Below are positions 3,261 to 40,255 of a stretch of 64,000 nt of DNA, piece by piece. Source of the stretch: Mumia flava (lineage in GTDB: Bacteria; Actinomycetota; Actinomycetes; Propionibacteriales; Nocardioidaceae); contig NZ_PGEZ01000001.1 in assembly GCF_002797495.1 (NCBI RefSeq), positions 930,001-994,000 of the forward strand, in the 5' to 3' direction. Numbering within the stretch: position 1 is the stretch's first letter; each line of letters starts with the position of its first letter. Made by a program: the position numbers and the translations under genes. The notes under the pieces were generated by a model, which saw nothing but the letters and a program-made list of their open reading frames with translations, made no database searches and had not been told where the DNA came from.

Positions 3261-3351
3261 GCCCGCCACCTGGCTGGGACGACCCCCACCTGACTGGGGA
3301 AACCATCAACGCCCGGTGCGCGACTCCGTAGCCGGCTACGCAGACCGGCAA
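3261..3351 (-). repeat. 3'-end hairpin repeat, subfamily A, copy 1
   Basis: A 91-bp element repeated almost exactly at 3405-3495 (two differences seen). Read on the minus strand it contains GTCTGCGTAGCC, then the palindrome GTAGCCGGCTAC, then GGTTTCCCCAG. The 369-bp gap between the convergent genes (3189-3557) holds only the terminator and the two repeat copies; I see no gene in it. Confidence 0.85.
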
Positions 3352-3404
3352 CGCGCGTCGTACCGACCGCGCCACGACCGGAGCAGTCTCACCACCGACG
3401 AACA

Positions 3405-3495
3405 GCCCGCCACCTGGCTGGGACGACCCACACCTGGCTGGGGAAACCATCAACGCCCGGTGCGCGACTCCGTAGCCGGCTACGCAGACCGGCAA
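3405..3495 (-). repeat. 3'-end hairpin repeat, subfamily A, copy 2
   Basis: Second copy, 144 bp from the first, in the same orientation. It starts about 62 nt after the stop of the PHP gene when read in that gene's direction. Related copies are at 38856-38971 and 40184-40255. Confidence 0.85.
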
Positions 3496-3557
3496 GCCGA
3501 GGGAGAAGGCGGCCGGCGAACGCGGTCGTGCGGTGCGGTGGCGAAGGCGCGGTGGCG

Positions 3558-4400
3558 TCAGACGGGGAGCGGGACGAGGTCGCCGAGCAGCCGGACGTAC
3601 TGGCCCGGCGCGGTCGTGTTGACCCCGAGGTCGTAGCCGACCTTGCCGGTGCCGTGGTAGTCGCTCGACCCGGTGTACGGGAGGTCGAGGTCGGCGGCCA
3701 CACCCCGCAGCCAGCTCCGGGCGACGGTGTCGTGGTCGTTGTGATCGACCTCGATCCCGGCCAGACCAGCGTCGGTGAGCAGCGCGAACGCGTCGGCGTC
3801 CAGGATCGTGCGGCTCTGTCGGCTCGCCGGGTGCGCGACCACGGGCCGCCCTCCCGCCTCGACGAGGAGCGCGATCATCTGCTCGAGGTCCGCGGCGTAC
3901 CGGTCGACGTACGCAGGGCGCCCCGGCATCAGGTAGCGCGCGAACGCCTCGTCGCGATTCTCGACGACCCCCTGGGCGATCATCGCGTCGGCGATGTGCG
4001 GACGTCCGGTGGCTGCCGCATCCCCGGACACGGCGAGCACGTCGGCCTCCGTGACGTCGATCCCGAGGCCACGCAGCGCCTCCAGCGTGCGTGGGAGCCG
4101 TTGCCGCCGACCGTCCAGCACGGCTTCCAGCTCGGACAGCAGCGCCGGATGCGTCGGGTCGGGCTCGTAGCCGAGCAGGTGCACGCTGCGTCCCCGGAAT
4201 CGGCACGAGATCTCGAGTCCGCGCACCAGCGTGATCCCGACCCGATCAGCCGCCTCCTGCGCCTCGCCCCACCCGGTCATCGCGTCGTGATCGGTCAGTG
4301 CGACCACGTCCAGCCCCGCCGCCGCAGCGGCCTGGACGAGCTGAGCCGGGGTATCGGTGCCGTCGGACCGGGTGGAGTGGGTGTGGAGGTCGATCAGCAC
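3558..4400 (-). CDS. PHP-domain phosphoesterase (YciV / RNase AM-like)
   Basis: A 280-residue PHP-superfamily metal-dependent phosphoesterase. The N-terminal DLHTHST (4-10) and TDHD (36-39) motifs, the GLEIS segment, the AHPA segment and the late GSSDYHG motif supply the expected metal ligands. Length and motif order fit the E. coli YciV type (3',5'-nucleoside bisphosphate phosphatase / 5'-3' RNase) rather than the PHP domain of DNA polymerase. The start is GTG at 4400 (VLIDLHTHS), the usual position right before the first motif, and it fits a leaderless mRNA from the TAGGCT box at 4412-4407. It lies directly downstream of the PEP-mutase-like gene on the same strand. Confidence 0.85.
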   Translation of the reverse strand: MLIDLHTHSTRSDGTDTPAQLVQAAAAAGLDVVALTDHDAMTGWGEAQEAADRVGITLVRGLEISCRFRGRSVHLLGYEPDPTHPALLSELEAVLDGRRQRLPRTLEALRGLGIDVTEADVLAVSGDAAATGRPHIADAMIAQGVVENRDEAFARYLMPGRPAYVDRYAADLEQMIALLVEAGGRPVVAHPASRQSRTILDADAFALLTDAGLAGIEVDHNDHDTVARSWLRGVAADLDLPYTGSSDYHGTGKVGYDLGVNTTAPGQYVRLLGDLVPLPV

Positions 4401-4406
4401 CCACCC

Positions 4407-4412
4407 AGCCTA
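4407..4412 (-). promoter_or_regulatory. -10 box of the PHP gene, fused to the upstream TAG stop
   Basis: TAGGCT, then 6 nt, then the GTG start at 4400. The TAG (4412-4410) is the stop codon of the PEP-mutase-like gene. Confidence 0.7.
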
Positions 4413-5231
4413 GCGATCCGGCGGGCCGAGCTCCTGCTGGAGCGTGCCGTACGGGATCGCCCCCTCGACGAACGAGAACGTCCCGCGCTCGAGCATCTCG
4501 AGCCCCGCCTCACGGACCACGGTGAGCGCGGCGCGGGCCAGCGCACCGCCGATGCTGATCCGTGCCGCGCCGACGTCGTACAGTGCCGCCGCCGTGTGGA
4601 CGGTGGGGGTCAGGCCGTTGACGACGTTGAGCGGCGCGGGGATCTCCTCGGCAAGGGCCCGGATCGCGTCCAGGTCGTCCACGCCCGGGACGAAGACGCA
4701 ATCCGCGCCTGCCGCGGCGTACGCCCGCCCGCGCTCGATCGCGACGTCGAGCGCCATGCCCGGGTCGTCGCCGGAGAGGTACGCGTCGGTGCGGGCGTTG
4801 AGCACCAGCTGCGCGGACGGCGCGACCGCCCGCGCCGCAGCGACCCGCTCGACGGACTCCTCCAGCGGCAGGAGCCCGTCCGCCACCGCGTCCTCGAGGT
4901 TGATCCCCACGCCGCCGAGGTCGAGGACGCCGCGGACCGTCGTGACGACGTCCCCCTCGGTGTCTCCGTATCCCGACTCGACGTCGACGCTGACCGGGAC
5001 ACCGACCGACGCCACGACCGGCTCGACCGCGCGGAGCATGGCGTCCCGGGACAAGCTGGCGTCGGGATGGCCGGCCGCGAACGCGATCCCTGCGCTCGTG
5101 GTCGCGATCGCCTCGAAGCCGGCGAGCTCGAGCATCCGCGCCGACCCGGCGTCCCAGGCGTTCGGGAGGATGAACCCGGGTCGGCGGCGGTGGAGCGCGA
5201 GGAACCGCTCGGCAGGACTCGGAGCACTCAT
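4410..5231 (-). CDS. Isocitrate lyase / PEP mutase family protein
   Basis: A 273-residue TIM-barrel enzyme of the isocitrate lyase/PEP mutase superfamily. It has the N-terminal ILPNAWDAGSA segment, a Gly-rich DVESGYGD metal-site region, NLED, and LNARTDAYL. These match the uncharacterised oxaloacetate-decarboxylase/2-methylisocitrate-lyase-like group that cleaves or forms C-C or P-C bonds in 2-oxo acids; the substrate is unknown. I chose the ATG at 5231 (MSAPSPAERF), which has GGCGGC just upstream and matches where homologues start; an in-frame extension to 5303 would add only Arg-rich sequence. The stop is TAG and doubles as a promoter element for the PHP gene. Confidence 0.8.
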   Translation of the reverse strand: MSAPSPAERFLALHRRRPGFILPNAWDAGSARMLELAGFEAIATTSAGIAFAAGHPDASLSRDAMLRAVEPVVASVGVPVSVDVESGYGDTEGDVVTTVRGVLDLGGVGINLEDAVADGLLPLEESVERVAAARAVAPSAQLVLNARTDAYLSGDDPGMALDVAIERGRAYAAAGADCVFVPGVDDLDAIRALAEEIPAPLNVVNGLTPTVHTAAALYDVGAARISIGGALARAALTVVREAGLEMLERGTFSFVEGAIPYGTLQQELGPPDR

Positions 5232-5306
5232 GCCGCCGACCGTACGCCCGGCCACTGACAACGCCCTCGCGGGACGCACTCGTGCTCGCGACCTCCGCCG
5301 CACGCA

Positions 5307-5343
5307 CGAGCGCGCCCGTGGGAGGATCCCACGGGCGCGCTCG
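5307..5343 (-). terminator. Hairpin terminator after the MFS efflux gene
   Basis: Perfect 17-bp stem (5307-5323 with 5327-5343) and a 3-nt loop, 36 nt after the MFS stop in that gene's direction. Confidence 0.85.
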
Positions 5344-5379
5344 CCCTGTCGGCCGTACGGCCTGGTCAGCCCCGACGCG

Positions 5380-6972
5380 TCAGTGCATCATCACCGGCGC
5401 GGCCTCGGCGCTCTCGTCGTCGCCCGAGCGCTCGATCCGCCTGCGCGGCAGGAAGAACGCCGGGATGAGGGTGATCGCCACGAGCACCGTGGCCACGACG
5501 AACGCCACCCCGAACGCATCGGAAGCCTCGGCGAAGCCCTGGTCGAGCACCCCCAGCTGGTTCAGGAGGTCGGCGAGCGGCGGGGCGTACCAGCTGCCCA
5601 TCGCGGCCTCGGCCAGCGTCATGCCCTGCGCCTCGTCCGGCAGGCCCTGCGGCACCAGCGAGCTCAGCAGGGTGCCACCGGTCAGCTGGTTGGTCAGGAC
5701 GACGGAGAACACCGCGGTGCCGATCGACGCCGCCACCTGCTGCGCGATGTTCATCAGGGTCGAGCCGCGCGCGATCGTGTGGTCGCGCAGCGTCGCGAGC
5801 GCAGCCGTCATCGTCGGCATCATCGTGGCGCCCATGCCGAGGCCCATCACGAAGAGCGCCCCGCAGATCAGCCAGTACGAGGTGTCGGCACCGATCTGGG
5901 TGAAGAAGCCCATCCCGATCGTGATCAGCACCAGACCGCTCATCACGATCTTGCCGGGACCGATCCGGTCGACGAGGGTGCCCGCGATCGGCATCGTGAT
6001 CATCGCCCCGAGCCCCTGCGGAGCCACCAGCAGGCCCGCCATGAGCGTGGACTCGCCGCGCACCTGGAGGAAGTACTGGGGGAAGAGGATGCTCGCGCCG
6101 AAGAACGCGATCGCGAACATCATCATCACGATCACGGCCACGGTGATGTTGCGCTCCTTGAACAGCCGCAGGTCGACCAGCGGGTGCTCGGGGCGGAAGG
6201 CGTGGAACGCGAACGCGGTGATGAGGACGGCGCCGATCACGGTGAAGACGATGACCTTGGTCGCCCAGAACGTGCCCTCCTCCGGGATCGAGGAGACGCC
6301 GTAGAGGAGCGCGGCGAGACCGGGCGACAGCAGCAGCATGCCGGTCCAGTCGAACGACTCCGACGGGGTCGGGGCGTCCTTCGGCAGCACACGCCACGCG
6401 TAGACCAGCGCAACGATGCCGATCGGCAGGTTGATCAGGAAGATCCAGTGCCAGGAGAAGTTGTCGATCAGGATGCCGCCGAGGATCGGACCGCCGATCG
6501 GCCCGAGCAGCATCGGGATGCCGAGCACGGCCATCAGCCGGCCGATCCGGTGCGGGCCGGCCGCACGCGTCATGATCGTCATGCCGAGCGGCATCAGCAT
6601 GCCGCCGCCGAGGCCCTGCAGCGCACGGAACGCTACGAGCTGGCCGAGGTCGGCGGCGACGGCGCACAGCAGCGAGCCGATCGTGAAGAGCCCGACCGCG
6701 AGCATGTAGAGGCGCTTGGTGCCGAACCGGTCGGCGGCCCAGCCGGTCAGCGGGATCACGGTCGCGAGCGCGAGCGTGTACGCGGTCATGGTCCAGGCGG
6801 TCTCGGCCGGCGAGGCCGAGAACTCCTCCTGGAACGTGGGCAGTGCGACGGTGACGACCGTGATGTCGAGGATCGACATGATCGCGCCGAGCACGACGAC
6901 TCCGGCGATCTTCAGCACGCCGGCGTCGAGCTTGTCGTCCGCGGGCGCGGGCGACCTGGGTGTTTCAGTCAT
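5380..6972 (-). CDS. DHA2-family MFS drug efflux transporter (EmrB/QacA type)
   Basis: A 530-residue integral membrane protein with about 14 hydrophobic helices, the length and helix number of the DHA2 (14-TMS) family. The motif A region between helices 2 and 3 is visible as GWAADRFGTKRL, and the antiporter-type segment FRALQGLGGGMLMPLG follows. It should export hydrophobic or cationic compounds with proton antiport; the substrate cannot be read from sequence. It starts at 6972 and shares one base with the stop of the MarR gene (TGATG), so the two form one operon, and it is very likely controlled by that regulator. A strong terminator follows. Confidence 0.9.
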   Translation of the reverse strand: MTETPRSPAPADDKLDAGVLKIAGVVVLGAIMSILDITVVTVALPTFQEEFSASPAETAWTMTAYTLALATVIPLTGWAADRFGTKRLYMLAVGLFTIGSLLCAVAADLGQLVAFRALQGLGGGMLMPLGMTIMTRAAGPHRIGRLMAVLGIPMLLGPIGGPILGGILIDNFSWHWIFLINLPIGIVALVYAWRVLPKDAPTPSESFDWTGMLLLSPGLAALLYGVSSIPEEGTFWATKVIVFTVIGAVLITAFAFHAFRPEHPLVDLRLFKERNITVAVIVMMMFAIAFFGASILFPQYFLQVRGESTLMAGLLVAPQGLGAMITMPIAGTLVDRIGPGKIVMSGLVLITIGMGFFTQIGADTSYWLICGALFVMGLGMGATMMPTMTAALATLRDHTIARGSTLMNIAQQVAASIGTAVFSVVLTNQLTGGTLLSSLVPQGLPDEAQGMTLAEAAMGSWYAPPLADLLNQLGVLDQGFAEASDAFGVAFVVATVLVAITLIPAFFLPRRRIERSGDDESAEAAPVMMH

Positions 6973-7433
6973 CAGTGGTCCTCACCGGTGGTGGGGTCGG
7001 TGGCCGCGAGCGCGGCCTGAAGGGCACGAAAGAGGACACTACGGTCCTCGTCCGACAGTTCGCGAGCGAATTCTTCGAGCGCGGCACGCTTGGCGTGCAG
7101 GTGCTCGGCGACGAGGTCACGTCCGTCGTCGGTGAGCGTCACGAGGCGCGTCCTGCGGTCGCGCTCGCACTCCTCACGCGTGACCAGGCACGCGCTGACC
7201 AGCTGGTCGACGTTGCGCCCGGCGGCGGCGACCGACATCCGCAGCGCCTCGGCGATCGTCCCGATGCTGCAGGCGTCGCGGCCCGACAGGGCGATCAGCG
7301 TGCGCGCCTGCGAGGGCGTGAGCTGACGCTCGGCGAAGGCGTCGACGCCGCTGTGCTCGGCCCGGCCGGCGATGCGCACGAAGAGCGCTTCGAGCACGCC
7401 GACGAGCTCGCGCGGAGTCGGAGATTCGGTCAC
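6972..7433 (-). CDS. MarR-family transcriptional regulator
   Basis: A 153-residue winged-helix regulator. The helix-turn-helix lies in about residues 52-85 (SIGTIAEALRMSVAAAGRNVDQL) and the wing carries the typical basic DRRTRLVTLTDDG (about 92-104). It is co-transcribed with the MFS efflux pump immediately downstream, the usual arrangement of a local, ligand-released repressor. It starts with GTG at 7433, consistent with leaderless transcription from TAGTAT at 7445-7440. An inverted repeat at 7453-7465 beside that box is a likely autoregulatory operator. Confidence 0.9.
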   Translation of the reverse strand: MTESPTPRELVGVLEALFVRIAGRAEHSGVDAFAERQLTPSQARTLIALSGRDACSIGTIAEALRMSVAAAGRNVDQLVSACLVTREECERDRRTRLVTLTDDGRDLVAEHLHAKRAALEEFARELSDEDRSVLFRALQAALAATDPTTGEDH

Positions 7434-7439
7434 CGCAAA

Positions 7440-7445
7440 ATACTA
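7440..7445 (-). promoter_or_regulatory. -10 box of marR-MFS operon (leaderless)
   Basis: TAGTAT followed by 6 nt and the GTG start at 7433. Confidence 0.65.
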
Positions 7446-7452
7446 ACGCCTA

Positions 7453-7465
7453 CGCAAATATTGCG
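7453..7465. promoter_or_regulatory. Candidate MarR operator
   Basis: CGCAA-ATA-TTGCG, a 5-bp inverted repeat in an AT-rich patch (rare in this genome), 7 bp upstream of the -10 box, where a repressor would block the -35 region. Confidence 0.5.
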
Positions 7466-7510
7466 CGAACGAGAATGTTGTGACGGTGATCACATCACGA
7501 GGGCCGGGCA

Positions 7511-9181
7511 TCAGGGCACGTCACCGGCCGCGCGCTCCGCACGCAGCCGCTCGGCGAGATCGTAGGCCTCCTGGACCGATCCGAGCAGCACCTCCGACTC
7601 GCCGATCACTCGGCCGCGCAGGCCGCCGAGCTCGCCGCCGGCACGGGCGAACCGCGTCCGCAGCTCGTCGGGGACCCCGCACACCACGACCTCGATCCCC
7701 TGCTCGTGCCAGCGCTCCAGGACCCGGTCGAAGGACTTCAGGAAGGTGGACGACGGGATCCCCGCCGACCCGCGCAAGGAGATCACCAGTCCGGCGTCGC
7801 GCGTTCCCGAGGTGTCCGGCCACGACTCCTCCACCCGGTTGACCTCGGCGAAGAACCCGTTTCCTACGTAGTGCAGGACGGTCGTGCGCCCGCTCGGGAG
7901 CGTCGCCGGCGGATCGGCGACCCGCCACTGGCCGTCACCTGCGGGAACCAGCGCCAGCAGCCGGCCCCGCCTCGCCGACTGCACCGCGTACAGCACGATC
8001 GACAGTCCCGCACCGACGAAGATCGCCACCTGGAGCGGCAGCTGCGTCGTGGCCGCGAACGTGGCCGCCATCGCCGCGGTGGAGAGCCACGAGGTCCGGA
8101 CCACGAGGCGGACGTCGCGCCGGCGTCCGGCCACCAGCTCCCCGCCGATCACGAGCAGCAGCCCGCCGATCACCGCCATCGGGATGCCCCCGGCGAGCGG
8201 CCCGAGAGCGAGCACGAGCACGATCAGCCAGAGCCCGGCGAAGATGCCCGCCCAACGGGTCTGCGCACCACCGCTGATCGCCACACCTGTGCGCGACAGC
8301 GAACCACCCGTCGGGAGCGCGCCGAAGAAGCCACCCGCGGCGTTCGCCAGACCCTGCGCCGTGAAGTCGCGCGACACGTCGCCTCGCGACCCGTCCGGGT
8401 TGGGCATCGCGGCGCCGATCCCCGCCGCCTGCGCGAGCGCGACCAGAGCGATCGCGAGGCTGCCCGCCGCGAGCTCCGGCATCGCGGCGAGGTCCGGCGA
8501 CGTGAAGGGCGGCAGCGACCTCGGGATCGCCCCGATGTCGTCGACCGTCTCTGTGTCGACGCCGAGACCCGCGACGACGAGCGTCACGACGAGGAGCGAG
8601 ACCAGGGTCGCGGTGGTACGGAGCCGGGGGACCCGCAGCATCGCGCCCCAGGCCACCACCGTTGCCGCCGCCACGGCCGCCGTCGGCGCGTCCCAGTCGC
8701 CGACGTGCGCCAGCGCCTCGACGATCTTCCCGACGGTGTTGCCGGACTGCGGCGCGTAGCCGGTCGCGTCCTCGACGACCCCGGCGATGATCTGGACCGC
8801 GATCCCGAGGGTGAAGCCGGTCATCACCGCCGTCGAGACGAACGACATCACCGAACCGAGCCGCAGCACACCGAGCAGGACCATCCACAGCCCGACCATG
8901 ACCGTCAGTGCCGCCACCGCGCCCAGGTCGGCAGGATCGAGCCCGGCGTCGGTGAGCACGCTGCGCGCCGACAACGCGATCGCGCTGGTCAGCGTCGTGA
9001 CCATGAGCACGGTCCGCGCGAAGACGGACCCGATGATCGTCGGGACCGCTCCGGACCAGAGCCCCATCGGTGCCGAGAAGCCGCCGATCGTGGCGTAGGC
9101 CATGCCCTCCGGAATCGAGAACAGCCCGGTCACGAAGCCCGACACGACGTCACGACGCGTCGGGCGGGGCACGCGTGGCAT
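7511..9181 (-). CDS. SulP-family inorganic anion transporter with STAS domain
   Basis: A 556-residue SulP transporter. The N-terminal SIPEGMAYATIGG motif (about 22-34) is the SulP signature around helix 1. Ten or more hydrophobic helices follow to about residue 405. A C-terminal cytoplasmic STAS domain (about 430-545) contains the strand VVVCGVPDELRTRF. Members carry sulfate, bicarbonate or related anions; which one is not predictable here, and there are no sulfate-assimilation or carbonic-anhydrase genes beside it. ATG 9181 has GGGAGG 8 nt upstream. It appears monocistronic. Confidence 0.88.
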   Translation of the reverse strand: MPRVPRPTRRDVVSGFVTGLFSIPEGMAYATIGGFSAPMGLWSGAVPTIIGSVFARTVLMVTTLTSAIALSARSVLTDAGLDPADLGAVAALTVMVGLWMVLLGVLRLGSVMSFVSTAVMTGFTLGIAVQIIAGVVEDATGYAPQSGNTVGKIVEALAHVGDWDAPTAAVAAATVVAWGAMLRVPRLRTTATLVSLLVVTLVVAGLGVDTETVDDIGAIPRSLPPFTSPDLAAMPELAAGSLAIALVALAQAAGIGAAMPNPDGSRGDVSRDFTAQGLANAAGGFFGALPTGGSLSRTGVAISGGAQTRWAGIFAGLWLIVLVLALGPLAGGIPMAVIGGLLLVIGGELVAGRRRDVRLVVRTSWLSTAAMAATFAATTQLPLQVAIFVGAGLSIVLYAVQSARRGRLLALVPAGDGQWRVADPPATLPSGRTTVLHYVGNGFFAEVNRVEESWPDTSGTRDAGLVISLRGSAGIPSSTFLKSFDRVLERWHEQGIEVVVCGVPDELRTRFARAGGELGGLRGRVIGESEVLLGSVQEAYDLAERLRAERAAGDVP

Positions 9182-9318
9182 CGGTCGTTCCTCCCGTCAC
9201 CGGACCCGTCCCCCTGCACCCTGCCGTACGCGCCCCCCGTCCGCGATTCGGGCGGTCGGGGGAAGAAACGCGGTCCGAGAACCTCCCCGGAACGCCCGGA
9301 TCGGGGTCGGGCGGCGGG

Positions 9319-9852
9319 TCAGGCGCCGGCGGGGCCGGACCAGTTCTTGTCCGGCTGCGGGACCGGGCGGCCGGGCTGCTCGCCGCCGCGCGCGGTCAGG
9401 TAGTTCTCCTTCGGCACCATCACCTTGCGGCGGAAGATGCAGACGACCTTCCCGTCCTGGTTGTAGCCGATCGTCTCGACGTGCACGACGCCCCGGTCGT
9501 CCTTGCTCGTGCTCTCCCACTTGTCGAGCACGGTGGTCTCGCCGTAGAGCGTGTCGCCGTGGAAGGTCGGCGCGACGTGCCGCAGCGACTCGATCTCGAG
9601 GTTGGCGATCGCCTTGCCGGAGATGTCCGGGACGCTCATCCCGAGCAGGATCGAGTAGACGTAGTTGCCGACGACGACGTTCTTGCCGAACTGCGTCGTC
9701 TCCTCCGCGTAGTGCACGTCCAGGTGCAGCGGGTGGTGGTTCATCGTCAGCAGGCAGAACAGGTGGTCGTCGTACTCGGTGACCGTCTTCCCGGGCCAGT
9801 GCTTGTAGGTGGCTCCGACCTCGAACTCCTCGTACGAGCGACCGAACTGCAT
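9319..9852 (-). CDS. MaoC-family dehydratase (mesaconyl-CoA hydratase-like)
   Basis: A 177-residue hot-dog-fold enzyme. It resembles MaoC proteins of the mesaconyl-CoA hydratase type in length and in HPLHLDVHYAEET, the region that carries the catalytic Asp/His of the hydratase-2 motif. It could hydrate mesaconyl-CoA to methylmalyl-CoA. An acyl-CoA dehydrogenase and a CoA-ester lyase of the matching type lie 14 kb away (23.7-25.9 kb), so participation in an ethylmalonyl-CoA-like route is plausible but inferred. ATG 9852 is chosen because GGAGGAG lies 6 nt upstream; the in-frame start at 9888 lacks this. Confidence 0.8.
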   Translation of the reverse strand: MQFGRSYEEFEVGATYKHWPGKTVTEYDDHLFCLLTMNHHPLHLDVHYAEETTQFGKNVVVGNYVYSILLGMSVPDISGKAIANLEIESLRHVAPTFHGDTLYGETTVLDKWESTSKDDRGVVHVETIGYNQDGKVVCIFRRKVMVPKENYLTARGGEQPGRPVPQPDKNWSGPAGA

Positions 9853-9905
9853 GACGACTCCTCCAGGATGTGACTCACCAGTAACCACATCATGGCGGAC
9901 CTCCG

Positions 9906-9930
9906 GGGCGCCCCGGCACCCGGGGCGCCC
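9906..9930 (-). terminator. Hairpin terminator after the alkylsulfatase gene
   Basis: Perfect 11-bp GC stem (9906-9916 with 9920-9930), 3-nt loop, 16 nt past the stop of the minus-strand sulfatase gene. Confidence 0.75.
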
Positions 9931-9946
9931 GACGCGACCGCCGGGG

Positions 9947-11839: not shown

Positions 11840-11845
11840 GGGCCC

Positions 11846-11851
11846 AGCCTG
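11846..11851 (-). promoter_or_regulatory. -10 box of the alkylsulfatase gene (leaderless)
   Basis: CAGGCT, 6-nt spacer, ATG at 11839. The first base departs from TANNNT. Confidence 0.5.
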
Positions 11852-11859
11852 ACAGGGAT

Positions 11860-13080: not shown

Positions 13081-13086
13081 GATCGA

Positions 13087-19524: not shown

Positions 19525-19530
19525 CCCCCC

Positions 19531-19566
19531 GCTGCTCGAGGCGCGAGCGCAGCGAGCGATCGAGAG
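19531..19566 (+). repeat. Dispersed GC-rich repeat (family C), single copy
   Basis: About 35 bp, identical except for two bases to the reverse complement of 26950-26984. The core is a GAGCG-c-AGCGAGCG-type near-palindrome. It lies between convergent genes. Confidence 0.7.
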
Positions 19567-19579
19567 CCCCTCCCCGGTC

Positions 19580-23380: not shown

Positions 23381-23488
23381 CCGCACGTTTGCGTTGCCGG
23401 CAACGACAACTGGTTCCGGGCACCGAGAATGCGCGCGCGTCTGCGGTGCCACGAACCGCCTTCCGTTGCCGGCAACCGAAACGTGCGG
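23381..23488. repeat. 3'-end hairpin repeat, subfamily B, copy 1
   Basis: A 108-bp imperfect palindrome. The ends CCGCACGTTT and AAACGTGCGG are perfectly inverted. Inside them on each side is the self-palindromic GTTGCCGGCAAC. The inner arms GGTTCCGGGCACCG and CGGTGCCACGAACC pair at 12 of 14 positions. Confidence 0.85.
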
Positions 23489-23574: not shown

Positions 23575-23676
23575 GTTTGCGTTGCCGGCAACGACAACTG
23601 GTTCCGGGCACCGAGAAAGCGCGCACGTCTGCGGTGCCACGAACCGCCTTCCGTTGCCGGCAACGCAAAACGTGCG
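23575..23676. repeat. 3'-end hairpin repeat, subfamily B, copy 2
   Basis: A second copy, offset 188 bp, differing from copy 1 at only about two positions over the central 86 bp. It ends 5 nt from the stop codon of the acyl-CoA dehydrogenase. Confidence 0.85.
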
Positions 23677-26943: not shown

Positions 26944-26947
26944 CCAG

Positions 26948-27153
26948 GGTCTCGATCGCTCGCTCCGCTCGCGCCTCGACCAGCGTCCCCGCTCGACGAG
27001 GCGCAGCGAAGCGGCGCGCCCCCGCTCGTCGAGGAAGCGAAGCGACGTCCCCCCGCTCGACGAGGCGAAGCGAAGCGACGTCCCCCGCTCGACGAGGCGA
27101 AGCGAAGCGACGTCCCCCCGCTCGACGAGGCGGAGCGAAGCGACGATCGAGAC
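26948..27153. repeat. Tandem array of five 31-33 bp GC-rich units capped by a family C repeat
   Basis: Units begin with GCTCGACGAG (or GCTCGTCGAG) at 26991, 27024, 27055, 27087 and 27120, and each runs into a GCGAAGCGAAGCGACG-like stretch and a C-run. The left end (26948-26984) matches the single-copy element at 19531-19566; the right end finishes with GATCGAGAC, the inverse of the left-end GTCTCGATC. The 255-bp gap between the divergent EamA and 27187 genes holds only this array and their promoters. Confidence 0.8.
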
Positions 27154-31030: not shown

Positions 31031-31036
31031 GAGCGC

Positions 31037-32844: not shown

Positions 32845-32891
32845 GGTGTCCGCGCTCCGACCCGCGTCTGGGGCGGTGTAGGTCGCGCGCG

Positions 32892-32897
32892 TAGCAT
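32892..32897 (+). promoter_or_regulatory. -10 box of mrp (leaderless)
   Basis: TAGCAT, 7-nt spacer, ATG at 32905. Confidence 0.6.
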
Positions 32898-32904
32898 CGA
32901 AGCC

Positions 32905-34053: not shown

Positions 34054-34056
34054 GCT
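34051..34056 (+). promoter_or_regulatory. -10 box of tatB, fused to the mrp TAG stop
   Basis: TAGGCT, 6-nt spacer, GTG at 34063. TAG (34051-34053) is the stop codon of mrp. Confidence 0.7.
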
Positions 34057-34062
34057 GACGCC

Positions 34063-34383
34063 GTGTTCGACATCGGGCCGGCCGAGATCGCCGTCATCGT
34101 GATCGTCGCGATCCTCGTGTTCGGTCCCGACAAGTTGCCCGAGTTCGCGCGGCAGGCGGGTCGGATGCTCCGCACGGTGCGTCAGATGGCGGACAACGCG
34201 AAGTCGGATCTCAGCCGCGAGTTCGGCGACGACTACACCAGCCTGCGCGACGACCTGCGCGGACTCGACCCCCGTCGGATGCTCGAGGACGACGAGGACG
34301 ACGACCTTCCGCGTCGGAGCACGAAGAAGCCGAAGCCGCTGGAGTCCGGCGAGCCGGCACCGTTCGACGTCGACGCGACCTGA
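34063..34383 (+). CDS. tatB: Sec-independent protein translocase subunit TatB
   Basis: A 106-residue protein with the TatA/B layout: a short periplasmic start (MFDIGPAEI), one membrane helix (about 9-22), the hinge FGPDKLPE, an amphipathic helix (about 28-60) and a charged tail. The Glu at residue 8 and the adjacency to sigE/rseA point to TatB rather than TatA (Rv1224 is tatB in the same setting). It recognises twin-arginine preproteins with TatC, which is not in the window. GTG start, probably leaderless. It converges on the anti-sigma gene with only 7 bp between stops. Confidence 0.9.
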   Translation: MFDIGPAEIAVIVIVAILVFGPDKLPEFARQAGRMLRTVRQMADNAKSDLSREFGDDYTSLRDDLRGLDPRRMLEDDEDDDLPRRSTKKPKPLESGEPAPFDVDAT

Positions 34384-34390
34384 CCGAGCG

Positions 34391-35818
34391 TCAGCCCGCT
34401 GGGGTGTCGCCGGGCGACGCCCAGCTGCTCAAGCGCACCAAACCCGACCGCACCCGGTGCCAGGCGTCCGTTCGAGAGGCCGCGGTGCCGGGGAGGTCGT
34501 GGACCACGGACTCGATCTGCGCCGCCTCGCCGTCGGTGACCGCCGTGAAGACGATCCCGTCGGCGCTCCAGGTGGCGACCGTCGGGCTGCCGTCACGCAG
34601 CCACACCCGACGTCCCCCGAGCTCGGACCGGGTGAACGACGGATCCGGGCGGCTCATCAACGCGCCGTTCTGCTCGTACAGCGTCATCGTGGTCGCGCCG
34701 TCGCTGTAGGTGAGTGCGATCGCCCGTTCACCGTCGACGGCGACCCACTCGGCGCCGACCCGCGCGAAACCGGACCCCAGGACGTCGTGGCAGGGCCAGC
34801 CTCCGTCGGAGAGGTCCTGCATCGTCAGGGAGTCGATCGCGGCGTCGACCGGCGTCGCGACCGGGTCCGCCGTGTCGTCGGTGGGCGCGCCCGTGTCGGG
34901 CTCGGACGGGTCGGCGTCGCCGACGCTGGTGTCGCGCGCGTCGGCGTCGCCCGTCGCCCCGACGGCCTCGGGGCCGATGCCTCCGGCCGCCGACGGGCCT
35001 TCCGGGGCATCCCGTGGGGCCGCGGCCTCCCGGGACAGCGGAGAGCCCAGCAGGCCGATGGCGGCGCCCGACCGGCTCGTGGTGTCGGTCGCGACCGCGC
35101 CGGAGAACCGCACGATGCGCTGGAGCGCACCCGTGGCACGGTCGATCTCGAAGGTCGCCTCGCGCACGCCGTCGGCCGACGCGACCACACGGATCCGATC
35201 GGATCCGGCGGTCTCCACCACGGAGAGGTCGTAGTTGCGGGCCAGCAGCCGGACGCTGACGCTCGAGCCGAGCGCCCGGGACAGGACCTCGCTCGCCCGG
35301 AGGGCATCGGTGTGGGTCGGCGCGGCCGGACGCCGTGCCACGACGGCGACCGGGACGCTTCCGTGCACGGTCGTCGCGGTGGTGCGGACCAGGGCGACCG
35401 GGTCGGCCTGGCCGCGGAACTGGGCGATGAAGCGGTCGACCGGCGGCAAGGTCGAAGCACCGGACGCGGTCGGGACGCCGCCCAGCGCGTACGCGAGCCC
35501 GGCCAGCGCGACAGAGGCGCCGGTCAGCGCGACCCCGCCGCGAGCCAGGCCGTGGCCGAGGATCGCGCGGATCCGGCTCTCGGATGCGCCGGCGTCCCGT
35601 TCGGTCAGGCGGTCGGGGTCGGCGAGCGCGACCAGCAGGGCGGACCGCGGGGCCGGTGAAGGGCCCAGACCGGTCATCCGACGCTTGAGGGCGCGCCGCT
35701 CCTGCACGAGCTCGCGGCACGTCGGGCACTCGCCCAGGTGGTCGGAGACACGAGCGGCCTCGTCGTCGGGCAGCTGCCCGTCGACGAAGGCGTCGACCCG
35801 GTCCCCGAGGTGTGCCAT
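34391..35818 (-). CDS. rseA: Anti-sigma factor with zinc-finger domain fused to an RseB-like sensor domain
   Basis: A 475-residue protein. Residues 1-45 are a ZAS zinc anti-sigma domain: H27-x3-C31-x2-C34 in DHLGECPTCREL. A single membrane helix lies around 87-108. The extracytoplasmic part (about 120-260) resembles MucB/RseB, and after an acidic Ala/Asp/Pro linker (about 275-345) there is a second globular domain to the end. The mycobacterial RseA is only about 150 residues, so this is a much enlarged version. It overlaps the sigE stop by one base, so the two are made together; it should hold SigE inactive until an envelope signal arrives. ATG 35818 is chosen where the ZAS domain begins. Confidence 0.85.
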   Translation of the reverse strand: MAHLGDRVDAFVDGQLPDDEAARVSDHLGECPTCRELVQERRALKRRMTGLGPSPAPRSALLVALADPDRLTERDAGASESRIRAILGHGLARGGVALTGASVALAGLAYALGGVPTASGASTLPPVDRFIAQFRGQADPVALVRTTATTVHGSVPVAVVARRPAAPTHTDALRASEVLSRALGSSVSVRLLARNYDLSVVETAGSDRIRVVASADGVREATFEIDRATGALQRIVRFSGAVATDTTSRSGAAIGLLGSPLSREAAAPRDAPEGPSAAGGIGPEAVGATGDADARDTSVGDADPSEPDTGAPTDDTADPVATPVDAAIDSLTMQDLSDGGWPCHDVLGSGFARVGAEWVAVDGERAIALTYSDGATTMTLYEQNGALMSRPDPSFTRSELGGRRVWLRDGSPTVATWSADGIVFTAVTDGEAAQIESVVHDLPGTAASRTDAWHRVRSGLVRLSSWASPGDTPAG

Positions 35819-36408
35819 CAGCTGGTGCTCACCGCCGGATCCATCGGCCCGGCGAAACGGGTCCGTGCGCCACCCGGCGCACGGTGCTCGAGCGCCGCAC
35901 GCAGATGCTTGCGACCCCGGTGGATGCGGGAGCGGACGGTGCCGATCTTCACCCCGAGGACGTCGGCGATCTCCTCGTAGGACAGACCCTCGATGTCGCA
36001 CAGCACGACGGCGACGCGGAACTCCTCGGGGAGCGCCGTCAGGGCCTGCTCAACGTCCGCGTCGAGGTTGGCGTCCTGCCAGACCCGCTCGGGCGAGATC
36101 TCGCGCGACACGAGGCGCTCCTCGGCGCCCTCGGCGAACGGGTGGAACCGCAGCTTGGACTTGCGACGGACGCGGTCGAGGAAGAGGTTCGTGGTGATGC
36201 GGTGGATCCAGCCCTCGAACGAGCCGGGCTGGAAGGAGTCGAGCGATCGGAAGACGCGGATGAAGACCTCCTGGGTGAGGTCCTCGGCGTCCTGCTGGTT
36301 TCCCGTGAGTCGGTACGCGAGACGGTAGACACGCGCGGAGTGCTGCTCCACGATGTCCTCCCACGACCCGACGGCCGGGTTGGTGACGGGCTGAGCCGTG
36401 CTCCCCAT
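35818..36408 (-). CDS. sigE: ECF RNA polymerase sigma factor SigE
   Basis: A 196-residue ECF sigma factor. Region 2 covers about 18-88 ([29 protein letters not shown]) and region 4 about 120-175 ([21 protein letters not shown], then the helix-turn-helix with [15 protein letters not shown]). It directs transcription of envelope-stress genes. It is co-transcribed with its zinc anti-sigma factor and preceded by a GGAAC-n17-CGTT promoter of its own type, so it activates itself. ATG 36408 has GGAGGGG 7 nt upstream. Neighbours match M. tuberculosis sigE (Rv1221). Confidence 0.94.
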
Positions 36409-36461
36409 GTCTTCCCCTCCTGTCGTGGCCGGAAACCGATCGTCTCGTTCTTGCCTGAGAC

Positions 36462-36487
36462 AACGATGAGACGGCGCTGGGCGTTCC
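36462..36487 (-). promoter_or_regulatory. ECF (SigE-type) promoter of sigE
   Basis: Read on the minus strand: GGAAC (36487-36483), 17 bp, CGTT (36465-36462), the canonical sigma-E consensus with ideal spacing. The leader to the sigE ATG would be about 48 nt and contains the GGAGGGG site. Confidence 0.85.
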
Positions 36488-36583
36488 CCATGACGCGACT
36501 GTGAGCCGGATCACATCGGATCGGGGAACTTCCCGGACCGTACGCCACCGGCCGCAATCGCCAGGATGGCCGGTGCGATGCCC

Positions 36584-36589
36584 TAGGCT
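36584..36589 (+). promoter_or_regulatory. -10 box of the O-methyltransferase gene
   Basis: TAGGCT, predicting a start of transcription near 36596 and a leader of about 37 nt with GAGAGGAG at 36619-36626. Confidence 0.6.
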
Positions 36590-36632
36590 GAGCGCAGACC
36601 GCCGGGAGACCGGCCCGCGAGAGGAGCCCACC

Positions 36633-37274
36633 ATCGCCACCGCGATCACGACGCAGAGCTGGCTGTACGCCGAGGAGTTCGTCGTCGAGGACGAGCACCT
36701 GCAGGCGGCCCGCGCCCGCGCCGAGGAGGTCGGGGTGGCGCCGATCGGCCCCGGCGGAGGCGCTGCGTTGCGGCTGCTCGCGTCGGTCGCCCGCGCCGGC
36801 GCCGTCGTCGAGGTCGGGACCGGCACCGGTGTCTCGGGGTTGTGGCTGCTGCGCGGGATGCGCGCCGACGGCGTGCTGACCTCGGTCGACCGCGAGGCCG
36901 AGCACCAACGACTCGCACGGGCGTCGTTCACCGAGGCCGGCATCGCCTCGAACCGGTTCCGGCTGATCTCCGGGTCCGCGCTCGAGGTCCTTCCCCGGCT
37001 CGCGGACGGCGGCTACGACCTGGTCTTCGTCGACGGCGACAAGCGCGACTACCCGCTGTTCGTCGAGGAGGCGGTCCGCCTCCTGCGGCCAGGCGGCGTC
37101 CTGGCCTTCGACAACGCCCTGTGGCACGACCGGGTCGCCGACGCCGCCCGTCGCGACGAGGACACCGTTGCGGTCCGCGATCTCGGCCGAGCCCTGCTCG
37201 AGGACGAGCGTTTCGTTCCGGCGCTGCTGCCGGTCGGCGACGGACTGCTGGTCGCCCGCCTCTCCGACGCCTGA
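36633..37274 (+). CDS. O-methyltransferase (Rv1220c-like), apparently with an ATC start
   Basis: About 213 residues, class I SAM methyltransferase. VVEVGTGTGVSGLWLL is motif I, LTSVDREAEHQRLA is motif II, and YDLVFVDGDKRDYP carries the metal-binding acid. It is divergent from sigE, as Rv1220c is in M. tuberculosis. The start is a puzzle: no ATG, GTG or TTG lies in frame between the promoter and the conserved SWLYAEEF. A GAGAGGAG site is placed 6 nt before ATC at 36633. The only upstream in-frame starts, GTG 36573 and GTG 36501, lie before the predicted transcript start. CTG 36660 would truncate the conserved start. Confidence 0.8.
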   Translation: MATAITTQSWLYAEEFVVEDEHLQAARARAEEVGVAPIGPGGGAALRLLASVARAGAVVEVGTGTGVSGLWLLRGMRADGVLTSVDREAEHQRLARASFTEAGIASNRFRLISGSALEVLPRLADGGYDLVFVDGDKRDYPLFVEEAVRLLRPGGVLAFDNALWHDRVADAARRDEDTVAVRDLGRALLEDERFVPALLPVGDGLLVARLSDA

Positions 37275-37362
37275 CGGCGAGTCATCCCTGGCGCGCTCGC
37301 GAGTCACCGTCGGCGCGATCGGGGATCACGGCGCGTGACCGTACGCGCGCGTCCGCGCACGA

Positions 37363-37396
37363 CGACGTCCTGTCGGCCCCCGCCGACAGGACGTCG
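37363..37396. terminator. Bidirectional hairpin terminator
   Basis: Perfect 15-bp stem (37363-37377 with 37382-37396) and a 4-nt loop between the convergent O-methyltransferase and YdhR-like genes, 6 nt from the latter's stop. Confidence 0.85.
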
Positions 37397-37402
37397 CGCT
37401 GC

Positions 37403-37753
37403 TCAGCCGTACGCCGGCGTCGCGTGGAACCCTGCGGCCCCCTCGGCGACGGCGACGACCTCGCACTCCTCGATGAGCTCGGGAGCCGCCCCGATGATCG
37501 TCGACCCCGGCGCGTCCGCCGCGGTCGCCGAGAACGACTCCTGGAACGCCGCACGTGCGGCGTCGTCCTCGAACACGTACACGCCCTCGAACCAAGCACC
37601 GGGCTTGGCCCGCCAGGTCTTGTACGCCAGCCCGGGCATCCCTGCGAACCGCTCCCACGAGCTGTCGCGGACGTACGACCTGAGCCGCTCCAGCGTGTCG
37701 TCGGGCGCGTCGCGCAACGACCAGCGGACGGTCAGCCCGGGCTGAGACGTCAT
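37403..37753 (-). CDS. YdhR-like putative monooxygenase (dimeric alpha-beta barrel)
   Basis: A 116-residue protein resembling E. coli YdhR: a ferredoxin-like barrel with the GLAYKTWRAKPGAWFEGVY segment and FEDDAARAAFQESF. Activity is unproven; relatives are proposed to act on aromatic compounds. ATG 37753 lies 1 nt after the DUF3117 stop on the same strand, so the two are co-transcribed and coupled. An in-frame extension to 37828 is antisense-overlapping DUF3117 and rejected. Confidence 0.75.
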   Translation of the reverse strand: MTSQPGLTVRWSLRDAPDDTLERLRSYVRDSSWERFAGMPGLAYKTWRAKPGAWFEGVYVFEDDAARAAFQESFSATAADAPGSTIIGAAPELIEECEVVAVAEGAAGFHATPAYG

Positions 37754-37754
37754 G

Positions 37755-37916
37755 TCAGACGGCCTTGAGGGCGTCACCGAGCTCAGTGGCCTCGTCGTTG
37801 GTGAGCTCCACGACGAGGCGACCGCCACCTTCGAGCGGGACCCGCATCACGATGCAACGTCCCTCCTTGGTGACCTCCATCGGGCCGTCCCCGGTCCGAG
37901 GCTTCATGGCCGCCAT
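37755..37916 (-). CDS. DUF3117 protein (Rv1211-like), 53 residues
   Basis: A small gene, too short for most ORF filters. It translates as MAAMKPRTGDGPMEVTKEG, then RCIVMRVPLEGGGRLVVEL and a Glu/Asp-rich end, which is the nearly invariant actinobacterial DUF3117 protein. The start at 37916 is preceded by GAGAGGGG. The function is unknown. The linkage to tag and a DivIVA-like gene a few kb away repeats the Rv1209-Rv1211 order. Confidence 0.92.
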   Translation of the reverse strand: MAAMKPRTGDGPMEVTKEGRCIVMRVPLEGGGRLVVELTNDEATELGDALKAV

Positions 37917-38002
37917 GCGTTCCCCTCTCGTCCGTGCGCACCGCGGGGCGCGTGCACTCCGGGCTCCATTATCGCCTACGGCCGGGCCGAGGGTGAATGC
38001 GG

Positions 38003-38008
38003 CAGACT
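38003..38008 (+). promoter_or_regulatory. -10 box of the enoyl-CoA hydratase gene (leaderless)
   Basis: CAGACT, 6-nt spacer, ATG at 38015. Confidence 0.5.
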
Positions 38009-38014
38009 GCCCTC

Positions 38015-38812
38015 ATGACCGAATCCCATGTGCCGGTGATGCTCGAGACCTCCGAGGGCGTCGCCACGATCACCTTCAACCGCCCTGAGGCCCTGAACAG
38101 CTTCGACGACCCGACCAAGGTCCTGCTCCGCGACCACCTGCGTGCCGTGGCGTCCGACGAGTCGGTCCGGTGCGTCGTGCTCACGGGTGCAGGCCGGGCC
38201 TTCGGCGCAGGACAGGACGTCAAGGCCCTGCTCGCGGAGCACGAGGGCGACGCCCCGTCGCTCGGCAACACCGTCGTGGAGCACTACAACCCGATGGTCG
38301 AGGCGATCACGACCATGCCGAAGCCGGTGATCGCCGCCGTCAACGGGATCGCCGCCGGCGCCGCAGCCTCGCTCGCGTTCGCCTCGGACCTGCGCATCGT
38401 CGCCGAGTCGGCCGGGTTCAACCTCGCGTTCTCCGGGATCGCACTGTCGGCCGACACCGGGGCTTCGTGGACCTTGCCGCGGTTGGTCGGCATGACGAGG
38501 GCGATGGACCTGCTCATGCTCCCGCGTACGGTCTCCGCCGCCGAGTCGCTCGAGCTGGGCATCGCGACCCGCGTCGTCGCGGACGACGAGTTCGGCCAGG
38601 TCGTCGGCGACATCGCCCGGCGCCTCGCCGACGGGCCGACCCTGTCGTTCGCGTCGCTCAAGCGTGCCGTCGCGTTCTCCTCGACCCACACGCTGAGCGA
38701 GTCGGTGGCGAACGAGGCGCGGCTGATGGCTCTGACCGGCGCGTCTGCGGACCACAGGGCCGCGGTGCAGGCGTTCGTCGCCAAGGAGAAGCCGACCTTC
38801 GTCGGACGGTGA
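38015..38812 (+). CDS. Enoyl-CoA hydratase/isomerase
   Basis: A 265-residue crotonase-fold enzyme. The CoA/oxyanion-hole segments are TGAGRAFGAGQDVKAL (about 64-79) and AAVNGIAAGAAASLAFASD (about 111-129). At the second catalytic Glu position the sequence reads SADTGASWTLPRLVG, with Asp where many hydratases have Glu, as in PaaG-type isomerases. It probably hydrates or isomerises an unsaturated acyl-CoA; there are no beta-oxidation neighbours. ATG 38015 is preferred over 37997 because of the -10 box placed 6 nt before it. Confidence 0.85.
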   Translation: MTESHVPVMLETSEGVATITFNRPEALNSFDDPTKVLLRDHLRAVASDESVRCVVLTGAGRAFGAGQDVKALLAEHEGDAPSLGNTVVEHYNPMVEAITTMPKPVIAAVNGIAAGAAASLAFASDLRIVAESAGFNLAFSGIALSADTGASWTLPRLVGMTRAMDLLMLPRTVSAAESLELGIATRVVADDEFGQVVGDIARRLADGPTLSFASLKRAVAFSSTHTLSESVANEARLMALTGASADHRAAVQAFVAKEKPTFVGR

Positions 38813-38855
38813 CCGCGGCGGCGCGGCCGACCTGACGGCCTGCGGGTGCGCGGGA

Positions 38856-38971
38856 GTCTGCGTAGCCAATTGGGGGTTCTCCGCAGCCAACCTGGGAGTC
38901 TGCGTAGCCAACTGGGGAAGCCCCCACTGGGCCCGGGAGGTTTCCCCAGCCCGGTGCGGGTCTGCGTAGCC
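38856..38971 (+). repeat. 3'-end hairpin repeat, subfamily A, copy 3 (three 12-mers)
   Basis: GTCTGCGTAGCC occurs at 38856-38867, 38898-38909 and 38960-38971. From 38892 on, the sequence aligns with the other copies through AACTGGGGAAG and GGTTTCCCCAGCC. It begins 43 nt after the enoyl-CoA hydratase stop, in the gene's orientation. The rest of the 236-bp convergent gap shows nothing else I recognise. Confidence 0.8.
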
Positions 38972-39048
38972 CAGCCGCGCCGAGCACCTGCGGGCGCAGC
39001 CGCGCCGAGCGGCCCGCGAGCGCAGCCGCATCGATCCGCCTGTCGGGC

Positions 39049-40044
39049 TCAACGCCGGGCGGCTCCGCCAGCCACGGCGAGCACGAACGTGCGTCGTGAC
39101 CGCTCGATCGCTGCCCTGATCCGAGCGGCGGTACGCACCGCTGCGGGCTCCCGGAGCTCGCGCCAGATCCAGCGCGAGACCCCGTAGTCCAGATCGCGGA
39201 TCCGGTCCTCGCGCTCCTTCTCGTCGGTCAGGACCTGGCCGACGTCGGTGCTGTACGGGTTGCGGCGGCCGTACTTCACCAGCCCGTCGAACTCCCCGAC
39301 GTGACGCACGCCGACCCAGTCGAAGTCCACCCGGGCGAGGGCACCGGTCTCGAGCGTCAAGGTCCGCTGCAGATCGGGTCGCGGCACCCCGTGCTTGAAG
39401 AACAAGAACAGCGAACGCGCCTCGCCCGGCGACTCGCACCGCCCATCCGCGATCTCGACGGCGGTTCGGAAGGTCGCGAGGTCGGGCCACCGGAGGTATC
39501 GCGCGTCGACGAGCGCGGCGAGATCGTCCTTCGCGATGTGCTCTGACGCCAGCAGGTTCGACACCTGGACCGTCGCGGCCTCCACCCCCACGTCCGCGCC
39601 GATCTCGATGCAGGTCCGCGTCGGGCCGGTCACGAGGCGGCCGTCGATCCGGGTCAGGTCCTCGGGCAGGATCCCACCCCTCCGGTAGCGCACGCCGGCC
39701 TCGCGGCGCCCCGACAACGTGCCGAGGCGCGTCACGTTGACCTCGCTCAGGTCGAGTCCGAAGTCCGGGTCGCGCCGCAGCACCGCAGCCGATACCCCGC
39801 AGGCAGCAACCGAGTCGCCCAGCTTGTCGAGCACGGCACGCACCGCGACCGCGTGGCGGTCCCGGGGGTCCAGCCGGTCGTAGGTCGCTGCAGGCGCATA
39901 GGTGCCGTACCGGATCTTGCGCAGATGGCCGCGGCGCACCGCCGACGCGATCGTCCGGTCGCGGATCCCCATCCGAACGAGCTGTCCGCGCGTGACGTAC
40001 CCGCCCTGCACACCTGCGATGGCCTCGATCTCGTCCACGACCAT
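39049..40044 (-). CDS. AbiEi-type winged-helix protein with C-terminal DUF559/VSR-like nuclease domain
   Basis: A 331-residue protein. The N-terminal 50 residues match the AbiEi antitoxin winged helix (GGYVTRGQLVRMGIRDRTIA). A middle region has GPTRTCIEIGADVG. The last 95 residues resemble DUF559/VSR-type endonucleases: VDFDW (239-243), then E251-x-D253-G-x-x-K257, a PD-(D/E)xK-like set, and EKEREDRIRDLDY. No toxin gene (AbiEii) is beside it. The role is unknown; defence or DNA processing is inferred. Start ATG 40044 fits where the helix-turn-helix begins; 40119 is an alternative. It is bracketed by inverted copies of the subfamily A repeat. Confidence 0.75.
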   Translation of the reverse strand: MVVDEIEAIAGVQGGYVTRGQLVRMGIRDRTIASAVRRGHLRKIRYGTYAPAATYDRLDPRDRHAVAVRAVLDKLGDSVAACGVSAAVLRRDPDFGLDLSEVNVTRLGTLSGRREAGVRYRRGGILPEDLTRIDGRLVTGPTRTCIEIGADVGVEAATVQVSNLLASEHIAKDDLAALVDARYLRWPDLATFRTAVEIADGRCESPGEARSLFLFFKHGVPRPDLQRTLTLETGALARVDFDWVGVRHVGEFDGLVKYGRRNPYSTDVGQVLTDEKEREDRIRDLDYGVSRWIWRELREPAAVRTAARIRAAIERSRRTFVLAVAGGAARR

Positions 40045-40183
40045 CACCGTGGTGCGTCGTCGCGCCCGGCGCGGCAGCCGTACCGCGCCTGGGCACTCGC
40101 GAGCCCTGGGGAGAATCACCGGCGGTACGGCTCCCGCAGGCGCTGGCGTCGCGCGCCGTCCGCTCGCGCATGCCTCGACCTGG

Positions 40184-40255
40184 CTGGGAATTCCGGCACC
40201 TGGCTGGCGAAACCACCGTTGCCAGGTGCGGAACTTCCCAGTTGGCTACGCAGAC
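40184..40255 (-). repeat. 3'-end hairpin repeat, subfamily A, copy 4
   Basis: A near-perfect 21-bp stem (40184-40204 with 40221-40241, one shifted base) around a 16-nt loop, followed by GGCTACGCAGAC (40244-40255, the 12-mer on the minus strand). It begins 38 nt after the M14 peptidase stop in that gene's direction. Aligns with copy 3 over about 69 bp. Confidence 0.85.

Follow-up and report, generated by a model that had tools for sequence, protein, structure and literature searches.

Which factor multiplies and maintains small hairpin repeats in a bacterial genome? The model for the spread and persistence of small bacterial palindromes is provided by repetitive extragenic palindromic (REP) elements and their REP-associated tyrosine transposase (RAYT) genes. 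A 64,000-nt stretch of the Mumia flava genome (contig NZ_PGEZ01000001.1, positions 930,001 to 994,000; referred to here as the window) raises the same question with two families of intergenic hairpin repeats, A and B. An earlier note on this DNA had read them as a structured element at mRNA 3' ends or as a REP-like mobile repeat. We consider a gene between A copies, overlooked in that note, to be the key to the whole. The hairpin repeats are one of several species-specific palindrome families in actinobacteria, each of which is apparently accompanied by a single-copy gene of its own that encodes a DNA-binding nuclease and lies between two repeat copies. Our preferred reading, to which we give a probability of roughly 0.6, is a REPtron-like system based on a non-HUH nuclease, in which A and B would be two populations of miniature palindromic elements, each with its own stationary keeper gene. 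The reading draws on sequence comparison: the repeats themselves, their position on both flanks of the gene, amplification that is specific to a species wherever a family was tested, the joint occurrence of gene and repeat in Kribbella, their coupled divergence, the turnover of sites and a predicted protein fold. From these we infer that the encoded protein, a fusion of AbiEi-like and Vsr-like parts, mobilises the repeats.

The elements and the candidate gene are listed below. C1 denotes contig coordinates of the window genome (G000), window position 3260 being C1:933260.

3260..3345, minus strand: family A element of 86 nt, one palindrome at 3322-3345 (model R1, C1:933260-933345, E 2.4e-14)
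3404..3489, minus strand: family A element of 86 nt (model R1, C1:933404-933489, E 1.4e-15)
23387..23482, plus strand: family B element, composed of a 24-nt palindrome, an inner hairpin and a palindrome, the palindromes 72 nt apart
23575..23670, plus strand: second family B element, 96% identical to the first over 95 nt
38856..38867, plus strand: extra family A half-site, a partial copy (exact 12-mer) 3' of the enoyl-CoA hydratase gene
38898..38983, plus strand: family A element with half-sites at 38898 and 38960, 3' of the AbiEi-Vsr gene (model R1, C1:968898-968983, E 2.9e-12)
39049..40044, minus strand: candidate cognate gene for a 331-residue AbiEi-Vsr fusion protein, flanked by A copies on both sides
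40170..40255, minus strand: family A element 5' of the AbiEi-Vsr gene, 125 nt from its start (model R1, C1:970170-970255, E 5.7e-14)

The six exact GTCTGCGTAGCC sites from which the earlier note started (3334-3345, 3478-3489, 38856-38867, 38898-38909, 38960-38971 and 40244-40255) were all recovered, and all lie between called genes; gene calls come from a codon-usage caller written for this analysis, not from curated annotation. Likewise, GTTTGCGTTGCC begins both 95-nt B repeats, at 23387 and 23575, and the A/T swap between the palindromes, GTAGCC/GGCTAC in A and GTTGCC/GGCAAC in B, is as described. The repeats are real, but their unit is longer than had been thought. In family A the unit measures 86 nt: a 24-nt palindrome (GTCTSCGTAGCC/GGCTACGSAGAC) is followed by 38 nt that close on CACCTGG/CCAGGTG and then by another palindrome of 24 nt, which in the aligned copies is frequently worn at one end. 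Part of the A copies are arranged in tandem arrays with a period of 62 nt. In 29 isolated copies the information content is at background level outside about -9 to +84. Family B follows the same plan with the wider palindrome spacing, and the A model finds B elements weakly (e.g. E 5.5e-4).

Further copies are present elsewhere in the genome. The exact GTCTGCGTAGCC 12-mer has 26 copies in the whole 4.40-Mb genome, and the same word read backwards has none; 25 of these copies are at element sites, the remaining one (C1:2221586) being inside a called gene and not an element. A covariance model built from 14 copies gives at least 55 placements of A in 39 intergenic regions, a lower bound because 150 of 6,336 candidate spots were scored. 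The B 18-mer occurs 93 times genome-wide with up to three mismatches, against four times for the reversed word, and part of the 93 are A palindromes. An exact combined A/B palindrome was found in 0 stretches of a genome-contig collection from which records near the window genome were possibly excluded.

The predicted fold of the 331-residue protein is informative. Residues 1-200 are modelled as an AbiEi-like winged helix-turn-helix (wHTH) plus a nucleotidyltransferase (NTase)-like part and match the AbiEi and Rv2827c structures. Residues 203-318 are modelled as a Vsr/homing-endonuclease-like nuclease domain, with the catalytic domain of a homing endonuclease as best structural match. This predicted domain has a Vsr-type PD-(D/E)XK fold with acidic active-site-type residues, and its catalytic-type residues are invariant. 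A sequence-only PDB search with the protein gave a best E of 0.97, which is not meaningful. The gene is adjacent to the enoyl-CoA hydratase and M14 peptidase genes. A search for multi-copy proteins near the elements identified a partner candidate for family B as well, a paralog at C1:2577063-2578181 with B copies on both sides and TetR and ACPS genes as neighbours. An AbiEii (DUF1814) toxin gene was not found adjacent to the A or the B gene in a Pfam scan of the immediate neighbours. Two other views of the gene were rejected: PADLOC matches were to AbiEi models alone, which disposes of a defence system, and a plasmid-borne mobile gene does not fit a family present in 2 of 72,556 plasmid records. 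The protein family occurs in 118 of 396 sampled Actinomycetota genomes (E <= 1e-10, at most five candidates scored per genome). Six genus genomes contain two to six homolog matches each (28 in total, including fragments), many of them with their own palindrome shared by the two flanks. In five Mumia species one homolog is found at the same place with the same neighbours, and by eye the palindromes differ or resemble each other only in part.

Matching repeats on both flanks of the gene were assessed in controlled tests. Within the genus, a word of at least 12 nt recurs between the two 200-nt flanks in 16 of 21 gene copies; the same holds for 2 of 59 genes in the window and 2 of 43 genes nearby. 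The 21 are what remained of the 28 matches once seven fragments or weak matches had been dropped. The contrast fades when the test is loosened to 400-nt flanks and 10-nt words (20 of 21 vs 49 of 57 window genes). A set of 80 named loci from Aeromicrobium, Nocardioides, Kribbella, Pseudonocardia, Rhodococcus, Geodermatophilus and others left 64 scorable genes after removal of 12 without a gene call and four with too short a flank. Flanking repeats were present in 45 of these 64, against 6 of 322 neighbour genes and a length-matched expectation of 1.4. Two of the 80, Mumia xiangluensis (L195) and Mumia quercus (L213), repeat genus loci with identical proteins and flanks. Among 30 Kribbella loci 19 were scorable, eight of them already among the named loci, and 10 of the 19 were positive (controls: 0 of 30). 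A phylum-wide set of 29 loci, none shared with the other sets, gave 13 positives in 18 scorable genes vs 0 of 12. The genes in these tests are partly orthologs of each other, so that not all are independent.

Amplification of the repeats was compared with the presence of the gene. On both strands together, the A model matches the window genome 111 times, and five congeners not once at E <= 0.001. In a panel of 14 genomes, the L132 palindrome GGTTTGCCACGCTGGCG occurs 25 times in its own genome and 0-1 times in the 13 others, the L170 palindrome CTCCACCATGGGATGTCG 25 times in Nocardioides cavernae and 0-2 times in the 13 others, and the L183 palindrome CGTTTCAGGGGTCAACCCC 60 times in Kribbella kalugense and 0-1 times in the 13 others. 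Inverted doublets are spaced 68 and 70 nt in panel genomes G008 and G010. A 1.3-kb query containing an element of the L183 family gave 71 matches in K. kalugense, 75 in K. rubisoli and 3 to 11 in seven other Kribbella genomes; in these seven the strongest matches are the flanking genes and, among the matches listed, one (G015) falls on the element part. The cognate L183 protein is found at 100% identity in K. kalugense, at 85% in K. rubisoli and at no more than 66% in the other seven. In these comparisons, all four families that were run against genome panels show amplification nowhere but in the genome with the cognate gene or its 85% ortholog.

Individual sites turn over between relatives. 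One K. kalugense element is located between two convergent genes, and K. rubisoli has an element at the same site. In five relatives (G014, G016, G018, G019 and G020) the aligned gene ends lie within ~20 nt of each other, which leaves no room for an element. At this site the gap in G021 is 108 nt long and contains a different inverted repeat, the L183-type palindrome not being seen there, and in G015 the second gene is broken. Of the 32 K. kalugense sites, 25 have no counterpart among the 37 K. rubisoli sites listed, a set that may be incomplete; the other seven do have one, and the gene's own locus is among these seven. Proteins and elements were also compared pairwise: 16 of 108 protein pairs with at least 50% identity share four or more element 9-mers, against 0.76 by permutation, and at 75% identity or more 13 of 16 pairs share that many, two of these representing one genome sampled twice. 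The set excludes five proteins that contained stops or were too short, and it includes repeated pairs from doubly sampled genomes.

Could the hairpins act as RNA? The earlier note had taken the A/T swap to be compensatory, as would be expected if pairing matters. In 53 full-length A copies, pairing as an inverted repeat is genuine: 75.6% and 77.8% of cells are paired in two alternative folds, against 30-45% when the arms are slid, a control that favours any structure drawn from the same sequences. Covariation in these copies is at shuffle level (0.168 vs 0.166 and 0.154 vs 0.152 for the long-hairpin and three-hairpin readings). The A arms thus vary independently, and the compensatory interpretation falls. 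Half-site variants CGTAGCC and CCCAGCC combine freely across the two arms of A, and the outer arms of 32 B palindromes give 153 matches, a weak signal beside shuffles that average 143 and reach 162. Rfam gave no match in the window at gathering thresholds. Mixed half-sites together with shuffle-level covariation speak for half-sites recognised as DNA rather than for a conserved RNA fold.

The position of the elements speaks more for a role at gene ends. Regions with A elements are convergent in 25 of 39 cases, tandem in 11 and divergent in 3. Convergent regions make up 17 of 132 element-free intergenic regions of at least 60 nt at the same loci, a background that is biased low because regions bearing elements were excluded, and 10 of 61 gene gaps in the window. 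Three other families are convergent at 8 of 19, 7 of 14 and 8 of 13 distinct places, with 1 of 19 inside a gene call; these places cover part of the L132, L170 and L183 palindrome matches. The element at 38898..38983 is situated between convergent genes, 65 nt from the stop of the AbiEi-Vsr gene. The distance of 38-62 nt from stop codon to A copy, given in the earlier note for every copy, applies to just some of them: the nearest distances are 68 nt (PHP), 43 nt (enoyl-CoA hydratase) and 37 nt (M14 peptidase), and the others are 212, 85 and 147 nt. As a side observation, both genes are on the contig minus strand in 10 of 11 tandem regions with A elements, a strand bias in small numbers.

Such a preference for convergent 3' ends would be expected of transcription terminators or mRNA 3'-end structures that were dispersed through their usefulness, and long inverted repeats could terminate in both directions. 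However, the structured RNA proposed by the earlier note retains its placement and loses its support from covariation and Rfam. Family A was not found in the five congeners, B is not mainly convergent (5 of 14 regions, with 8 tandem and 1 divergent), and the partner gene would be left unexplained. We regard this explanation as quite improbable; a terminator role may be a side effect of the elements.

The independently varying arms and conserved half-sites are also what one would expect if the elements were operators, that is binding sites of an AbiEi-type protein that regulates itself via the flanking copies and many genes via the dispersed copies, the spread being due to something else. AbiEi and Rv2827c are described in excerpts of PMC7319586 as binding 23-bp inverted repeats in their own promoters, and the first 200 residues of the predicted model match these two proteins. 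Yet most A copies are convergent, away from promoters, and they are present downstream of the gene itself as well. A conserved regulon should also be seen in congeners, which is not the case for A in the five studied, and operators do not account for a nuclease domain with invariant catalytic-type residues. Operators as the full explanation are, in our view, unlikely.

A third possibility is that the repeats are ordinary miniature inverted-repeat transposable elements (MITEs) moved by an unrelated transposase, or that a homing-type nuclease gene entered the repeats once, the gene being a passenger in either case. Family A has long imperfect terminal inverted repeats of the MITE type (the 75.6% of paired cells in the long-hairpin reading), and the best structural match of the nuclease domain is to a homing endonuclease. 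A passenger gene, however, predicts no recurrent pairing, no fixed gene place and no co-occurrence. The pairing of gene and repeat recurs across the phylum with different sequences, the gene keeps one syntenic place in five Mumia species with differing palindromes, and gene and repeat co-occur in Kribbella. We therefore hold a passenger gene to be very improbable.

Several results weigh against a keeper gene with its own elements. Flanking repeats are missing in 19 of the 64 scorable named loci, and the new Kribbella copies are positive in 4 of 11 cases and lack flanking repeats in 7 of 11. For three more paralogs in the window genome, little or no amplification was seen in about 10% of the genome (431,709 bases): the L155 word had no match, L146 had 16 matches vs 6 for the reversed control, and L152 15 vs 5 reversed. 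A near-identical second copy of the keeper gene was not seen, from which it follows that the gene does not move with the repeats. The element-free evidence comes from one site read in detail, and a clean target-site duplication was not seen at it. Ortholog synteny may account for part of the coupled divergence.

Separately, period-22 runs of GGTCGCGAGTCGCCC-like words at C1:488125-488169 and C1:2245600-2245644 resemble repeats beside the paralog at C1:73253; these words gave 15 matches vs 5 reversed in the same tenth of the genome.

If the AbiEi-Vsr protein and its elements do form a REPtron-like system, the following sequence of events can be proposed. The AbiEi part would recognise the element half-sites as DNA, by analogy with AbiEi antitoxins that bind 23-bp inverted repeats. 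The nuclease part would nick or cut the element, possibly while the DNA is extruded or in single-stranded form at a replication fork, and repair or strand transfer would copy the unit of ~86 nt into intergenic DNA. Insertions would be retained mostly at gene 3' ends, where harm is least, the preference arising by selection. Gene and repeat would diverge together, and each species would thereby obtain its own families.

A possible link to replication is found upstream of the gene. The word TCCACAGG is present within 150 nt upstream of 42 of 88 homologous genes vs 6 of 1,153 control genes. Its usual position is ~60 nt ahead of the start codon and its usual form TT(G/A)TCCACAGG, in the motif TTGTCCACAGG. 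It resembles an actinobacterial DnaA box. A promoter reading of TTGTCCACAGG was rejected, as a conserved -10 region does not follow the motif. The window has one copy:

40105..40115, minus strand: degenerate copy of TTGTCCACAGG with two mismatches, weaker than in many homologs

We tentatively extend the proposal, at somewhat less than even odds, to Actinomycetota as a whole: an antitoxin-derived inverted-repeat binder joined to a Vsr/homing-type nuclease might, independently of RAYTs, drive species-specific palindromes, with one recognition palindrome per gene, and expression may follow replication via TTGTCCACAGG ~60 nt upstream.

How does this compare with known systems? In excerpts of PMC8266576, PMC3116915 and PMC3733652, REP elements and REPINs appear as short intergenic palindromes in inverted doublets or tandem arrays, as do the elements here. 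Both systems also have a single-copy gene that stays in place next to its own repeats (true of the majority of AbiEi-Vsr gene copies, though not of every one), and in both the gene and the repeat diverge together. The partner in REPtrons is an HUH tyrosine transposase, whereas here it is an AbiEi-Vsr fusion, and the system is found in Actinomycetota. The idea of a REP-like mobile repeat in the earlier note is, as regards behaviour, well supported by the many intergenic, species-specific copies, the inverted doublets and the element-free site. Strictly speaking the elements are not REPs: a RAYT/Y1 transposase (PF01797) was found in none of six genus genomes (control matches in 5 of 14 known genomes; the parent-transposon search was limited to Y1). 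Nor was a GTAG tag before the palindrome seen by eye in the elements of N. cavernae (Nocardioides) and K. kalugense (Kribbella); A has GTAG inside the palindrome and B has GTTG. CGTC-tagged REPs are likewise REP-like families without RAYT and, as an excerpt of PMC3733652 has it, are said to be without a dedicated transposase, whereas families of the A and B type have a candidate partner gene.

With AbiE type IV toxin-antitoxin systems (AbiEi, Rv2827c) the keeper protein shares the predicted wHTH and NTase-like fold of its first 200 residues, the known cases being binders of inverted-repeat DNA, but it has an extra C-terminal nuclease domain, and the AbiEii toxin gene is not beside it. Vsr/DUF559 endonucleases and the EDxHD homing endonucleases (I-Bth0305I) have a similar nuclease fold and acidic active-site-type residues; the keeper nuclease differs from them in being fused to an AbiEi-type binder and tied to dispersed palindromes. 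In the open-licence PMC literature we found no report of an AbiEi/DUF559/Vsr gene partnered with palindromic repeats, and none of its DUF559 papers, judged by title and the start of the abstract, concerns palindromic repeats. We rate the partnership as new in kind compared with the REPtron, because enzyme and tag differ; the behaviour is shared.

The window contains further repeats of other types. A separate dispersed intergenic repeat with the words GTCTCGATC, GCTCCGC and CTCGACGAGCG or CTCGACCAGCG is present at 19530-19568 and 26947-26985 (92% complementary), and a GTCTCGATC-type repeat also forms tandem runs near the A copy at C1:2333080 (L024). A 32/33-nt unit (CCCCGCTCGACGAGGCGAAGCGAAGCGACGT) forms an intergenic tandem run at 26970-27145, and direct repeats of coding type, with units like GGCGGCTGTCCACCCGG, are found at 48324-48602.

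For actinobacterial genomes the findings advise caution, as species-specific intergenic hairpins need not be regulatory RNAs. If the partnership proposed here is true, it would be a second, non-homologous pairing of gene and repeat in another phylum, and such a way of life would have evolved more than once. The large number of "AbiEi / DUF559" genes that are now orphans would then have a suggested function, and many naturally diverged protein-palindrome pairs would be available in which recognition and the mode of spread can be studied.

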